Shown one piece after another: positions 12,949-62,100 of a stretch of DNA of 64,000 nt. This DNA is from Tetradesmus obliquus (taxonomy: Eukaryota > Chlorophyta > Chlorophyceae > Sphaeropleales > Scenedesmaceae), in the NCBI GenBank assembly GCA_030272155.1, contig CP126207.1, positions 1,550,001-1,614,000 on the forward strand. The letters are read 5' to 3'. Under the pieces are notes generated by a model. The model did not search any database, was not told the DNA's origin, and was given only the letters and a program-made list of their open reading frames with translations. The position numbers and the translations under genes are program-made. The stretch's first letter is position 1. Every line of letters begins with the position of its first letter.

Positions 12949-15900
12949 CTACTGCTGCTTTGCAGGCTTGGCTGCACCAGGGGCTTCCTTAGGCTTGGCT
13001 GCTGCAGGAGTCTCCTTTGTAGGCTTGCGGCCGCCGGGCCTGCGCGCGCCAACGCCGCCACCCCTGCACATTAGAATATAATGTAAACAGACGGACAACT
13101 CGTTAGTATGCCGCAGTGTGTGGAGCTCAAGCAAAGAGATTCAGACACTGGGATCAGCATGCCAGGCTTGCCTGTACATTACCAAAGGAGGGCCACAGCC
13201 CACCCACAAAGGAGCCAGACAAGGCTCATGGGGATTACAACCACCCATGCACACATTGCACAAGGAGCGCCAACAGGCACACTGACTCAGGAGCGGGGGA
13301 TGCTGTGTGGTGCACAGGCAGAGCAGTGCGTTGAATCTCATCGTTATTCAACACAATACAATACAAACATCTCAGGACTGAAACCTGCCTAAGGCACTAG
13401 CCCAGCGAGCCGATAATTCAGCTCACCTGCCGACCCTGAAGAAGTGCTTTGAGAGGAACTTGCCGCTGTCCTTAGTGTTGAATTGTATGCACGTACACAA
13501 CACCCACCCAAATGTGTAGTTTTAATTAAGTAACATATCAGATCAGCTCGTAGTATAACTGAACCTTGGCTTGATCTTTACGCACCTGCCGACCCTGAAG
13601 AAGTGCTTTGACAAGAACTTGCCGCTGTCCTTGGTGGTGCGCGTGAGCTCAGGAGAGTCAAAGTCAACATGGTTGATGCCAAAGCGCTGGCTGTAGCCCT
13701 CACGCCACCTGCACAAATACAACATAGCATGCGGCAACCAACAACAGCAAGAATCATTAGCATGGCGGCAGGGTAAAATGTCCACGTGATTGATGCCGAA
13801 GCGCTGGCTGTAGCCCTCACGCCACCTGCAGAGCAACAAAACCACAGCGGTCGCAGCTGTGTGAGTTCTAGCAGCAATGCATGTGACGGCATCCAGGTGG
13901 CGCCGGAAAGGCGCTGCGGCGCTGGCTGCAGCCTTCACGCTGCAGAGTAGGCCCCAGGCCTTGAGGCAGATATTAGCTTACACTGCACCGCGCTAAAATT
14001 ACTAGCTTTAGCAGGCAAAGTCTCCTTGCGCCTGCAAAGCGTCTCAAAGTGCTGACACGTCATGGTGCGCTATGATCATGCTTACATCAAGACACGCCAA
14101 CAAACACCAACACGCGGTGCAAGGCATGGTGTAACAACCCACGTGAAGTTTTCTTTCCATGAAGCTTCAAGTGAAGTAGGTGCTGACCTCCACACCACCT
14201 TTGGTGCACCACCCCAAAAACACACAACAGAATGTTGCACAAGCAGCATCTTGCACTCACTCGAAGTTGTCCATGAAGCTCCATGCGAAGTAGGTGTTGA
14301 CCTTCACGCCACCTTGGGTACATCAACACCAAAAAACACAAATAACCAGTAAACATCGCAAGAAATTGAACCATGCACTCACTCGAAGTTGTCCATGAAG
14401 CTCCATGCAAAGTAGGTGCTGACCTTCACGCCCTCAGAGATGGCCTTGCACAGGTAGTCCAGGTAGCCCCTGCAGCAGCAGCAGCAGCAGCAGCAGCAGC
14501 AGCAGCAGCAGCAGCAGCAGCAGCAGCAGCAGCAGCAGCAGCAGCGAGTGAGAACTTGTTGAGAATAACAACTTCCATAGCTGGACTGCAGCTCAACACA
14601 GCAGCGGCCTTGCAAGCGGTTGCTGACTGCAACTGTCAGGCACTTCAGTGACAGCCGCCTTGTTAAAGTTCACACTCAGCCGCAAGTTCACAGTGTGAAC
14701 TTCCCACTCACTTGTAGTAGTTCACCCTGAAGTCGTCCCTGATGGCCTGCTGCACAGACATGGAGTCCTCCTTGGGTGCTGACACACCATTCTCTGTGAT
14801 CATGATCTGCTTGGGGTCGTACCTGGCAGCAGCAGCAGCAGCAGCAGCAGCAGCGGTGCAGGGAGTGCAGGGACAGGCATGAGTCAGCAAGCACCACACA
14901 GCACTGATTAGCAGCAGCAATACATGCAACATGTGCTGCCGCTGCTGCTGCTTGTAGAAGCTCCAGGGCACCGACAGCAACTGAAGCGCTATTTGTAACT
15001 GCTACCCACACTCCACAGCATTTCCAATTGTTACTAACTGTTACTAGCTGCTATAACAACACCGCACCTGCTCTGCACGTATTTCAGAAGCTTGTAGAAG
15101 CTCCAGGGCACCACACGCAGCCATGATGACTCAGCAAGAGGCCCAATGTCCTTTCCGTTCACATCCTGCTCGCGGGTCTCAACCGAGCACTTGTCGGTTG
15201 TGGAGCCCTTTGCAAACCTGCAGCAAGCAAAATGACACAGCAGCAGGGTTCAGGCACAGGGTTTGGGTGCAATGTCCTTGCCGTTCACATCCTGCTCGCG
15301 GGTCTCAACCGAGCACTTGTCGGTTGTGGAGCCCTTTGCAAACCTACAGCAAGCAAAATGACACAGCAGCAGGGTTCAGGCACAGGGTTTGGGTGCAATG
15401 TCCTTGCCGTTCACATCCTGCTCGCGGGTCTCAACCGAGCACTTGTCGGTTGCAGAGCCCTGTGCAAACCTACAGCAAGCAATATGACACAGCAGCAGGG
15501 TTCAGGCACAGGGTTTGGGTGCAATGTCCTTGCCGTTCACATCCTGCTCGCGGGTTTCAACCAAGCACTTGTCGGTTGCAGAGCCCTTGGCAAACCTACA
15601 GGGGTCAGGGTGCAGCAGCAGCAGGGTTCAGGGTGAAGCAGCAGCAGGGTTCAGGGTGAAGCAGCAGCAGGGTTCAGGGTGAAGCAGCAGCAGGGTTCAG
15701 GCACAGGGTTTGGGTGCAATGCTTTGCCTTTTGCATCCTGCTCGCGGGTCTCAACCGAGCACTTGTTGGTTGCGGAGCCCTGAGCTGCCCTTCAGCAGCT
15801 TAGGCTCCTTACAACAGCCATATGCCAACTCAGTTTTATGACTGATGTAACATGTTATATGACATGTCACATGTCATTGACAACACTCACTTGCCGGTGT

Positions 15901-59100: not shown

Positions 59101-62100
59101 AGTGGACTGTGACAGCGGAGCAGCTCTGCCTGAAGGTTACATCAATAAGTGAGTGCACATCTACATCTGTTACATTGTGTTATAACACGTTTTGAAACGT
59201 GTGGCCATGGTTGAGTACCGAGCAGTCGACTGTGACAGCGGAGCAGCTCTGCCTGATGGTTACATCGACAAGTGAGTGTGCAAGACAGCTCTTGCTGGAT
59301 GAAATTCCAGTTGCAAACCAACCGATGGATTCAGTAATCATTTGTTACTTTTGCTGCAGGAGCACCATCTACTCTGGCGGTCCCCGCCAGGGCTGGTCAT
59401 GGTCTCTTCTATAATGTCTGCCACTGTTTCATTGTAACTGACAGTGTATGTGCTACTGGTCCTGATGATGTTGCCTTGCTGCTGGAACAACATCTACTAT
59501 GGCGGCATGCAATGTATATTATAGTATAATTAATTAGGTTGTCAGCCAGCACACAAAACACACGAGAATGTGAAAGTATGTTGCATTTGTGAAGCGATGT
59601 TGCTGTTGCTGCAGGAGCACCATCTACTCTGGCGGTCCCCGCCCGGGTTGGTCCTGGTTCCCCTATTCATCTTCAAACTTCACCCTGATCGTTCCAGGAG
59701 GTAAGCCCTATACTGCTGTACTACTGTACTTCTGCTGTACTGCCGCACTTATGCTGTACTGCTGTACTTATGCTGTACTGCTGTACTTATGCTGTACTGC
59801 TGTATTTAGGCTGTACTGATGTACTTGCTGTACTGCTGCACTGCTTTACTTCTTCTGTACTAGTAGTGCTAAAGTACTGCTTTACAGTTGCATCACTGAT
59901 GCGGGCCCCGAGGCCAGTCATGTGTGTGCATTGTGTTGTAAGCTGGTCCCACTGGCATTCTCCTCCTTGAACTTCACTGAAATGACAGCTGGTGCGCTTA
60001 TAGCAGCAGCAGCAGGAGCAGCAGCAGAAGTACTGCAAGGGCTTCAGCAGCAGCAGCAGCAGCAGCAGCAGCAGCAGCAGCAGCAGAAGTACTGCAAAGG
60101 CTTCAGCAGCACAGTGCCCGCCTGATCAGGGTGCCACCCTGCTCGTTCCAGCAGGCGGGCACTGTGCTGCTGTAGCCTTTGCAGTATTGCTGAGTTACTT
60201 CTGCTGCTGCTGCCGCCGCTGCTGCTGCTGCTGCTGCTGCTGCTGCTGCTGCTGCTGCTGCTGCTGCTGCTGCTGCTGCTGCTGCTGCTGCTGCTGCTGC
60301 TATAAGCGCACCAGCTGTCGGCAACGTCGCCCTGGTGGCGAGCTCAGTACAGCTAGTTTGCTGCCACGTGCTGCTGCTGCTGCTGCTGCTGCTGCTGCAG
60401 CTGCAGCCGCCACCCCTTCCACTTGCCTCACCATCTCCCCTGCTGCTACTGTTGCTGCTGCTGCCGCCGCTTGTTGTTGCTGCTGCTGCTGCTGCTGCTG
60501 CTTCTGCTGCTGCTGCAGCCGCCACCCCTGCAGGCACCCCGTCCACTTGCCTCTCCATCTCTCCAGGTGGCGGGCTCAGCTTCAAGTGCAGGGAGTGCTA
60601 CAAGGCAGGGTTCCAGCCCTTTGCAGGTGAGATACATGCACAAAAAGGGGAAAATCTTGCTGGTTCTGGGTGATGGCCAGTACAGAATGCCTGTTTGCTG
60701 TGGTCTGGGCGATTGTGTTGCCAGTTACAAGCCTGTGCCTGGAGGTTTCAGCGCGGCAGCGCATGCTACGCACATGGCTTGCTTGTCGGCTTGATGATAG
60801 GCTGTGAGCCGTTGGGGTGGTGGGCTCAGCTTCAAGTGCAGGGAGTGCTACAAGGCAGGGTTCCAGCCCTTTGCAGGTGAGATACATGCACAAACAGGAA
60901 CACACTGTAGCTGGTCAGTTGCAGAAGCCAGTGACAGGCTGCCTGGCTGTGGCCCGGCTGCATTTCTAAATCGCCTACGAGCCTGGTGAAAGTTGCAGTG
61001 TGTGTAGCACTTTGTTGCTAGCGCTTGATGGCGGGGTTCCAGCCCTTTGCAGGTGAGGTGCAAGCCCCCAAAAGGCAGAAATTGCTAGATGTATGCAAGC
61101 AGTGACTGCCTGTCTGCTGTGGTCTGGGCGATGGATTCTCACAATTACAAGCCTGGTGAAGGTTGCAGCGAGCCTAGCACTAGAGATGTGCATCGTCTGC
61201 TGCCGAAGATCATCTGCGGTGCTGTTATTTGTTTTGATCATGGCACACCCACCCACCCACCCACCCACGTGCCGTGCCTGCAGGTGCTAGCGCCATCAGC
61301 TTTTGGATCAGGAGCAACACGCAGAGCAGCGACCCCTTCGCATCATCGACACCTCCAGGGCAGGTGAGGCCAGTGTAAAGTGACAGTTTTGGGCAATGTG
61401 AATGCACAACTGTGTAGCCAGTGTGGCGTCTTCATCTTCAAGGTTGCAACCAAGCCTGGCAATAACGCCATCGGCCCCGCACCCTACTGGAGCCAGTGTT
61501 GACAGTGTAGCATGGATATTGCGCATGACAGGGCCTGCAGTGCCTTCAACTTTATCGCAGAATAACTGTACATGTACACTGTAAATGCCGCAGCACCTAC
61601 TGTCAGGCCTGACCTCAGGTTCGTTCTGCATGGTGCATCCGTCACTGACACCTGCTGCTGCTCCTGCTGCCTTTGCCGCTGCTGCGGCTGCTGCCGCCGT
61701 CGCCGCTGCTGCTGCTGCTGCCGCCGCTGCCGCTGCTGCTGCTGCTGCCGCCGCCGCCGCCGCCGCCGCCGCTGCTGCTGCTGCTGCTGCTGCTGCTGCC
61801 ACCGCCGCTGCTGCTGCTGTTGCTGCTGTTGCTGCTGCCGCTGCTGCTGCTGCTGCTGCTGCAGGCGCCTGGGCTCAAGCTCATCCTGCAGAAGCAAGAG
61901 TCCGGCAACTACTGTGCAAGCGAGCCCACCACCAACACCACGGCACCTGTGGCTACTGCTGCTGGCGGCTGGTTCCAGTTCTCTGTGCCTACTTCTGCCT
62001 TCAACTGCGGCGGCGGCGGCATCACTCTTGCTGATGTCACTCAGTTTGAATTCCAGAACAAGAACGAGCGCAACGCAGATGTGTGCATTGGAGAGATCAA

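Follow-up and report, generated by a model that had tools for sequence, protein, structure and literature searches.

The window, a stretch of 64,000 nucleotides of Tetradesmus obliquus DNA, contains two reverse-strand genes annotated by hand, one beta-glucosidase-like (GH1) and the other encoding a protein disulfide isomerase (PDI). Their introns carry near-tandem copies of the adjoining exon edge and splice site, here called 'echoes', at a spacing of typically 100-150 bp. Introns upstream of an exon hold copies of its acceptor and 5' part; introns downstream hold its 3' part and donor. The features of the two genes are as follows.

13586..20997, minus strand: GH1 (beta-glucosidase-like) gene, 12 hand-annotated exons within the span, Pfam support
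13427..13480, minus: donor echo with 54 nt of GH1 exon 13586-13708, homology stopping about 3 nt into the intron
13777..13825, minus: acceptor echo of GH1 exon 13586-13708
14156..14310, minus: two donor echoes of GH1 exon 14383-14469
15270..15789, minus: four echoes of the acceptor edge of GH1 exon 15068-15217 at period 126; a 23-bp minisatellite is nested at 15599-15701
16086..16132, minus: acceptor echo of GH1 exon 15891-16011
16232..16590, minus: three echoes of the donor edge of GH1 exon 16705-16879, a pair of them with an indel column
16915..17010, minus: acceptor echo with 96 nt of GH1 exon 16705-16879, 5/5 differences at third codon positions
17489..17536, minus: acceptor echo of GH1 exon 17268-17378
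18211..18390, minus: two donor echoes of GH1 exon 18453-18606
18842..18913, minus: donor echo of GH1 exon 18987-19153
19225..19263, minus: acceptor echo of GH1 exon 18987-19153
19696..19863, minus: two echoes of the donor edge of GH1 exon 19918-20013 at period 115, the second ending 10 nt short of the junction
22217..28369, minus: PDI gene, 12 hand-annotated exons, intact open reading frame, Pfam support
22405..22457, minus: acceptor echo of the last PDI exon, 98.5% identity over 66 bp, spacer without detectable homology
23400..23441, minus: donor echo of PDI exon 23584-23752
23814..23972, minus: two echoes on the acceptor side of PDI exon 23584-23752, of which the outer begins 46 nt from the junction
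24253..24531, minus: three acceptor echoes of PDI exon 24009-24175, divergence rising with distance
25015..25249, minus: two echoes of the acceptor edge of PDI exon 24752-24963; in the outer, 7 sites differ, all four-fold
25500..25570, minus: donor echo of PDI exon 25640-25778
25835..25908, minus: acceptor echo of PDI exon 25640-25778
26113..26169, minus: donor echo of PDI exon 26253-26382
26428..26703, minus: three acceptor echoes of PDI exon 26253-26382

Together GH1 and PDI have 35 detected echoes. One lies downstream of GH1 exon 12 and the others occupy 15 of the 22 introns; in the remaining 7 none was detected. The claim of a sequence-only reading of this DNA, that introns here contain copies of exon edges, is confirmed, and the pattern extends beyond the window. 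Within the window it recurs on the plus strand, where the eIF4B-like features rest on gene-finder exons and the expansin copies on reading by eye.

44283..44336, plus strand: donor echo in the eIF4B-like gene, of gene-finder exon 43872-44143
45330..45640, plus: array of acceptor echoes in the eIF4B-like gene with a period of about 123, exon as called by the gene finder
56170..56483, plus: repeat array in the expansin region, donor echoes as read by eye
56947..57487, plus: expansin-region repeat array with a period of about 140
58477..59278, plus: expansin donor array, 7 copies, period 125, the real copy assigned by eye

Two of the seven copies in this last array have an apparent in-frame TGA, again as read by eye. 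On other chromosomes, GH1 paralogue and HSP70 loci on C5, C7, C11, C12 and C17 contain 22 echoes, 19 of them at the junction (this set omits L005, which lies inside the window, and L008, which overlaps L004); the same survey found no echo at L007 on C14. Near 5.0 Mb on C2, near-tandem repeats adjoin predicted exon edges, which rules out that C2 is echo-free as a whole chromosome. A genome scan with a kinase family (149 matches) gave, by eye, no clear HSP70-like series of repeated partial matches.

How regular are these copies? In a 314-kb sample, comprising the window and stretches of other chromosomes, we detected 121 echoes, 65 donor and 56 acceptor; a second counting script differed slightly, giving 119 echoes on 63 exons. 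Alignments were left out of the count if they had under 28 one-sided exon columns or overlapped a better alignment, as were gene models with fewer than three exons and less than 300 nt. Ninety-eight echoes come to within 3 nt of the junction and 21 stay farther than that from both edges; only 2 have the wrong edge, so that the regular polarity described earlier is borne out. The 98 junction echoes reach 28-108 nt into the exon whatever its length, including exons longer than 250 nt; among the remaining 23 is one match 282 nt deep (C1:68068-68355). Apart from PDI and GH1, the gene models come from ab initio prediction, which sometimes takes echoes for exons. In 21 pair-exon combinations an entire predicted internal exon falls inside a repeat copy; these are mostly very short predicted exons, or belong to a 53-54-kb block.

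The duplicated unit has a characteristic size. Comparison of the window with itself yields 94 plus-strand repeat pairs. Chance repeats were rejected: 83 pairs of at least 35 bits lie at offsets of 100-150 bp, and none at offsets of 10,000-10,400 or 20,000-20,400. Of the 16 TRF rows for the window with a period of at least 50, 15 have periods of 86-143. The offsets between repeat copies peak at 110-130 bp, with a second peak at 230-250. The unit measures 90-160 bp at 47 of 62 edges; over all 62 the interquartile ranges are 42-71 nt for its exon part and 57-105 nt for its intron part. Over the span from 28 nt to the end of the unit, the exon part departs from a uniform distribution (KS P 0.003, on no more than 28 edges); a KS test on 11 full-length arrays was not significant (P 0.075). 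Intron sequence beyond the splice consensus is common to both copies in 33 of the 61 nearest echoes, where the two intron halves are each other's best match (one of the 62 edges had too short a spacer for this comparison). The earlier statement that the unit includes intron sequence therefore holds for these; in the remaining 28 no intron-half homology is seen, though some exon halves are 96-98% identical. A ClpP array has four copies with an intron half common to all. The window gave no Rfam hits at the gathering threshold.

The best explanation, to which we assign about an even chance, is that break repair repeatedly duplicates DNA locally and in tandem, with a bias to junctions. The duplicated segments, roughly 100-160 bp long, would straddle an exon-intron junction. 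The copy contiguous with the remaining exon would keep the gene working and the other would fall into the intron, where it may multiply into an array and lose similarity, fastest in its intron half. Duplication would be biased to junctions whose intron flank is AT-rich. The data themselves show that echoes exist, their polarity, unit size and limited depth, an excess at junctions relative to a uniform null, and a dependence on intron GC. Beyond that, the act itself might be the repair of a break whose staggered ends are filled in and then joined, for instance, and the bias might come from whatever marks borders between AT-rich introns and exons, such as a nucleosome edge, a paused polymerase or an R-loop.

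One property of the echoes is not predicted by this model. Differences between echoes and exons are concentrated at synonymous sites, unlike those of sequences in neutral decay. Mismatches affect 286 of 1207 four-fold sites (23.7%) and 279 of 4517 sites at codon positions 1-2 (6.2%) over all echoes, 79/336 and 47/1363 in the hand-annotated genes, and 37/184 and 48/774 at the loci on other chromosomes. The ratio of the rate at positions 1-2 to that at four-fold sites is accordingly 0.26, 0.15 and 0.31, against 0.46-0.56 in a neutral echo control. Trinucleotide context was rejected as the whole cause (286 observed versus 146 expected). 'Decayed copies', as the echoes had been described, is only partly right: 26 of 121 contain a frameshift or stop, but most differences are synonymous and 84 of the 98 junction echoes keep the splice dinucleotide.

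Could the divergence of the two copies date from some event other than the duplication? An echo may have been copied from a diverged allele, or the exon later exchanged with one, in a hyperdiverse or hybridising population; both copies would then have evolved as coding sequence, with recombination confined to exons because introns differ too much. The four-fold excess and the low ratios in all three sets favour this origin. So do the matching GC contents at four-fold sites (0.724 in echoes, 0.722 in exons) and the lack of another source for the PDI echoes: a PDI paralogue was rejected, the best match elsewhere in the genome reaching only 64% protein identity. We nevertheless consider it unlikely. 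It needs very high divergence for one species, and in 21 pairs with well-aligned intron halves, a comparison biased by their having been picked for similar introns, introns differ by 6.1% and four-fold sites by 24%, so exchange would have to be restricted to the exon. A wider reading, which we advance only tentatively, is that a heritable process duplicates segments of about 120 bp centred on AT-rich-intron junctions, and that introns accrete exon-edge copies that preserve earlier or foreign alleles of the exon in coding-like form, a genomic archive.

The junction-biased duplication model also postulates targeting. The alternative is one duplication rate everywhere, with exonic duplications purged and junction-spanning ones merely easier to recognise. 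The regular polarity noted in the sequence-only reading follows equally from this alternative, because a tandem duplication that crosses a junction necessarily places one copy in the intron; being a matter of geometry, polarity is no evidence for a special process. Junction preference, however, is not given by geometry. Our main null was a simulation of uniform single-unit duplication with purging and decay on C1, C2 and C5 (250 kb); the window was left out because its gene models are incomplete (it counts 29 junction, 16 intergenic and 3 intron events). The null predicts that 0.28-0.33 of detected events lie at junctions, whereas 41 of 60 non-exonic events do, the comparison setting aside exon-only events (7 of 67 overall, 2 of 20 young). 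The scoring of repeats against positions away from exon edges that had been proposed, run here at sample size, thus gives a junction excess. Among young events, where detectability matters least, 16 of 18 are at junctions; intergenic repeats number 7 of 60 versus 43-51% expected. Nor would uniform duplication lead one to expect a depth cap near 100 nt.

The contrast is weaker with a cruder first null, in which the whole two-copy footprint was slid along the sequence: junction events number 45 versus 25.1 expected and intron-only events 5 versus 7.2, so the ratio of the two is only modestly raised. Young events under this null are 8 at junctions, 1 in introns and 1 intergenic, versus 4.5, 1.0 and 3.5; in C5 alone, with 13 versus 7.3 at junctions and 4 versus 2.7 intron-only, the two classes show no contrast. 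GH1 and PDI have 19 junction and 3 intron-only events, where the expected junction share is 0.62 (one-sided P 0.012); the three sit by position inside echo arrays. A mutational process centred on splice junctions, as proposed, therefore stands in the 250-kb test and in the two hand-annotated genes but loses strength under the cruder null, and we regard duplication free of targeting as quite unlikely.

Echo rate falls steeply with the GC content of the intron flank (P 9e-15 over 704 junctions), from 6 of 13 junctions with flank GC below 0.4 to 0 of 60 with flank GC of at least 0.7, and does so separately in the window, C1 and C5. A common motif in the flank was rejected: the best 5- and 6-mers, at P of about 0.001-0.004 among 31-121 tested, are unconvincing once GC is matched. 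Junction-biased duplication does not explain an echo desert on C2 at 1.0-1.1 Mb, where echoes occur at 0 of 258 junctions versus 15.5 expected from GC.

Might the echoes be products of assembly? Exon edges of two diverged haplotypes or strains, set side by side by assembly or polishing, would make a unit of read length, and the unit of about 120 bp, the frequent end of homology at the splice site (among the alignments listed) and the coding-conserved look of the exon halves are what one would then see. Yet the ClpP and seven-copy expansin arrays, the frameshifts and stops, the steep dependence on intron GC and the spread over many chromosomes all speak against such an artefact, which on sequence evidence appears very unlikely. 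Hardly credible, as far as sequence can tell, is that echoes are spliced as mini-exons or regulated decoys with their amino-acid sequence conserved in place, some becoming new introns and exons as in the potato RdRp gene: the splice dinucleotides intact in most junction echoes, the few changes at codon positions 1-2 and the copies called as exons by the gene finder would fit, but units are multiples of three no more often than chance (remainders 0, 1 and 2 at 23, 19 and 20 of 62 edges), frameshifts or stops are present, an acceptor echo by construction has no donor of its own, and inserts would interrupt conserved proteins such as PDI and HSP70.

If junctions do attract tandem duplication, splice sites shape where DNA mutates as well as how genes are read. 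From the anatomy of the echoes it follows that introns are lengthened and given spare splice sites; the process, if true, would be a concrete route to both, with spare sites available for new exons and introns, and its graded copies would let it be followed stepwise. Ab initio gene finding in such genomes calls for caution, since it can call echoes exons.

The sequence-only reading knew of no standard feature type for this pattern, which is not wholly without precedent. Our literature search, which could not reach most subscription journals, found only one like case, already published: in the potato RdRp gene, according to PMC4974935, a new intron and exon arose when a genomic segment spanning an intron-exon boundary was duplicated in tandem. 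Like that duplication, the echo unit spans one junction with intron and exon. The potato case is one event in one gene, whereas here more than 100 copies, on both donor and acceptor sides and on many chromosomes, apparently lengthen existing introns. In the Rogers (AGGT) model, as outlined in the same text, an intron is gained by internal tandem duplication of exon only and consists of exon sequence. Both involve tandem duplication inside genes that interacts with splicing, but 0 of 259 repeat pairs fit the model (intron equal to one unit, both ends at equal unit offset). Introners (PMC9860276), copies of one element in many genes, likewise change intron content on a large scale; echoes instead match their own neighbouring exon, and no plus-strand match over 60 bp occurs at a distance of at least 3 kb within the window. 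Small tandem duplications arising by fill-in at overhang breaks (CST/Pol alpha-primase) are established in mammalian cells (PMC8355091). They too are short and direct; unlike for echoes, the accessible text names no splice-junction preference, and the overhangs it gives are 43-50 bp.

Two general classes bear comparison. Tandem exon duplication copies whole exons; it shares with echoes the local copying of coding sequence within a gene, but echoes are mostly edges, and duplication of a whole exon with its flanks was rejected on their limited depth in long exons. A minisatellite consists of units longer than about 10 bp arranged head to tail, which describes the 22 of 62 edges with two to four echoes and the seven expansin copies; the other 40 edges have a single echo.

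We searched 314 kb for echoes, near-tandem intron copies of an adjoining exon edge with its splice site: the window, at C17:1550001-1614000, and 250 kb chosen blind on other contigs (C1 and C2, 1.0-1.1 Mb, 100 kb each; C5, 2.00-2.05 Mb, 50 kb). The genome comprises 104.66 Mb in 17 contigs; GC is 55-60.5% across the sampled stretches and introns are long. Size, GC and long introns resemble those of Tetradesmus obliquus, for which Table 1 of PMC5966456 gives 108 Mb, 57% GC and a mean intron length of 462 bp. Further loci sampled were GH1 paralogues, one HSP70 gene and, at 5.0 Mb on C2, a 10-kb stretch.

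The hand-annotated PDI and GH1 genes have 12 exons each, GT-AG introns and continuous reading frames (GH1: Pfam Glyco_hydro_1, 483.7 bits; PDI: Thioredoxin and Thioredoxin_6). Other models came from a purpose-trained gene finder. Of its products on C1 and C5, seven proteins chosen as conserved-looking were compared with Pfam, and each matches a family (ClpP, COX15, DUF4202, kinase, actin, IMS polymerase, H2TH glycosylase). The gene finder took some echoes for exons, and some true exons of GH1 and of the expansin region escaped it. Among its models is:

C1:1019250-1023167 (loci L010-L011; 19250-23167 of the stitched C1 piece), ClpP gene, several repeat copies joined as in-frame exons that add repeated peptides; either an annotation trap or ongoing exon gain.

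Local repeat pairs form a distinct size class. Their spacing peaks at 110-130 bp and again at 230-250 bp, and control offsets of 10,000-10,400 and 20,000-20,400 bp gave no repeat pair of at least 35 bits. The 118 repeat families in the 314 kb divide into 82 mixed exon/non-exon, 24 without a gene model (including some unpredicted GH1 and expansin exons), 7 exonic and 5 intronic. Echo-exon alignment yielded 121 echoes; 98 approach the junction to 3 nt or less, 2 are copies of the wrong exon edge and 21 reach neither edge. The 98 extend 28-108 nt into the exon (median 56), a range that holds for the 24 from exons longer than 250 nt, and 84 keep the splice dinucleotide. A frameshift or stop occurs in 26 of the 121. 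The GH1 paralogue and HSP70 loci (C5, C7, C11, C12, C17) added 22 echoes, 19 at the junction; one locus in that survey, L007 on C14, had none. A genome-wide Pfam HSP70 scan gave recurrent partial matches from one same profile start on C17 and C13. Other repeats in the window are:

15599-15701, 23-bp minisatellite, 4.5 copies, 97% match, within the GH1 echo array.
53167-54360, large block of predicted exons mutually 66-87% similar, spaced 129-930 bp; perhaps real exon duplication instead of edge echoes.
6820-7053, young tandem repeat, period 86, 98.6%, no confident gene model.
9565-9744, young tandem repeat, period 92, 90.9%, no confident gene model.

The last two periods are shorter than those of most echoes.

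How far does the copied unit extend? The sequence-only reading held that copies include intron sequence and hence that the duplicated unit runs across the splice junction. Of the 61 nearest echoes, 33 have an intron side that matches that of the exon better than any same-type control intron does; in these at least, therefore, the unit crosses the junction, the intron half being lost faster. The other 28 lack such a match, some despite exon halves 96-98% identical. In many of the young pairs listed, likeness ends a few nucleotides beyond the splice site.

The regular polarity that the same reading noted is uninformative, because a tandem duplication across a junction can only put its copy into the intron. 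The test was therefore a simulation in which single duplications fell at uniformly distributed positions on C1, C2 and C5, with exon-internal events purged, neutral decay and an identical detector. Junctions received 0.28-0.33 of detected events (0.21-0.24 if at least 40 nt of intron was demanded), introns about 0.24 and intergenic sequence 0.43-0.47. Observed events numbered 41 at junctions, 11 in introns, 7 intergenic and 1 mixed, with 7 exon-only excluded; young events numbered 16, 1 and 1, with 2 exon-only. Junctions hold 41 of 60 non-exonic events, an excess that, in this sample, supports the proposal of a mutational process favouring them. An earlier null, which slid the entire two-copy footprint, gives a weaker contrast (junction 45 observed against 25.1 expected, intron-only 5 against 7.2, intergenic 5 against 22.5; C5 alone, junction 13 against 7.3, intron-only 4 against 2.7); many of the placements that it scores as junction could not come from one duplication. 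In hand-annotated genes, 19 events are at junctions, where a share of 0.62 would be expected, and 3 are intron-only (P = 0.012); their positions mark two of the three as echo-echo pairs and one as the nested minisatellite. The exon part of the unit is non-uniform in position (P = 0.003, at most 28 edges); in the 11 full-length arrays alone it is not significantly off uniform (P = 0.075).

Echo occurrence depends on composition. Among 704 junctions, GC of the first 60 nt of intron flank was the strongest predictor tested: from below 0.4 to at least 0.7, echoes mark 6/13, 18/67, 15/97, 11/180, 6/287 and 0/60 junctions. The effect is present in the window, C1 and C5 each taken alone. Exon GC had no effect (P = 0.45), and echo-bearing introns are longer, as expected. 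In C2:1.0-1.1 Mb (G000, C2:1000001-1100000, L019-L028; GC 60.5%), 0 of 258 predicted junctions carry an echo, with 15.5 expected from GC alone; looser criteria gave a single weak candidate (74% identity). Near-tandem repeats adjoin exon edges on C2 at 5.0 Mb, so this desert is local; a regional factor may suppress or erase echoes there.

Divergence between echo and exon is unexpectedly coding-like, falling mainly on synonymous sites. Mismatches affect 286 of 1207 fourfold sites (23.7%), 130 of 1047 twofold sites and 279 of 4517 sites at codon positions 1-2 (6.2%). The fourfold and position 1-2 counts are 79/336 and 47/1363 in hand-annotated genes, and 37/184 and 48/774 in loci outside the training sample. 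The ratio of positions 1-2 to fourfold is thus 0.26 overall, 0.15 and 0.31, against 0.46-0.56 for a neutral echo beside an exon with free synonymous drift under similar detection. In 21 pairs selected for well-aligned intron halves, fourfold sites differ by 24% and intron halves by 6.1%, a fourfold gap. Possibly echo and exon were diverged coding sequences to begin with, or exons exchange with diverged alleles; unusually rapid synonymous turnover in these exons and translation of some echoes are also possible. Trinucleotide context fails as a cause of the synonymous excess (146 expected, 286 observed). For PDI, no close paralogue turned up from which its echoes could stem.

As to mechanism, staggered breaks followed by fill-in and end joining could produce duplications of the echo kind; break repair by fill-in yields tandem duplications of this sort (PMC8355091). 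Their place would be set by a positioned feature at the border of AT-rich intron and GC-rich exon, and arrays would grow by slippage or unequal exchange, both ordinary processes. A literature search found no report of a genome-wide process of junction echoes. The nearest precedent found concerns one potato gene, in which a tandem duplication across an intron-exon boundary creates a new intron (PMC4974935). The junction bias and coding-like divergence would be new features if they hold.

Further features of the window are:

62351-62368, perfect 18-bp palindrome GGGACTCATATGAGTCCC, 3' of the expansin-region gene; a single match in the window allowing up to 2 mismatches, and zero exact matches across 35 loci.
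14472-14545, 17385-17474, 20016-20117, 56636-56718 and 56796-56872, long (CTG)n runs, by eye just upstream of or near 3' splice sites.

In that position the (CTG)n runs seem to act as the intron end (GCTGCTGCAG).
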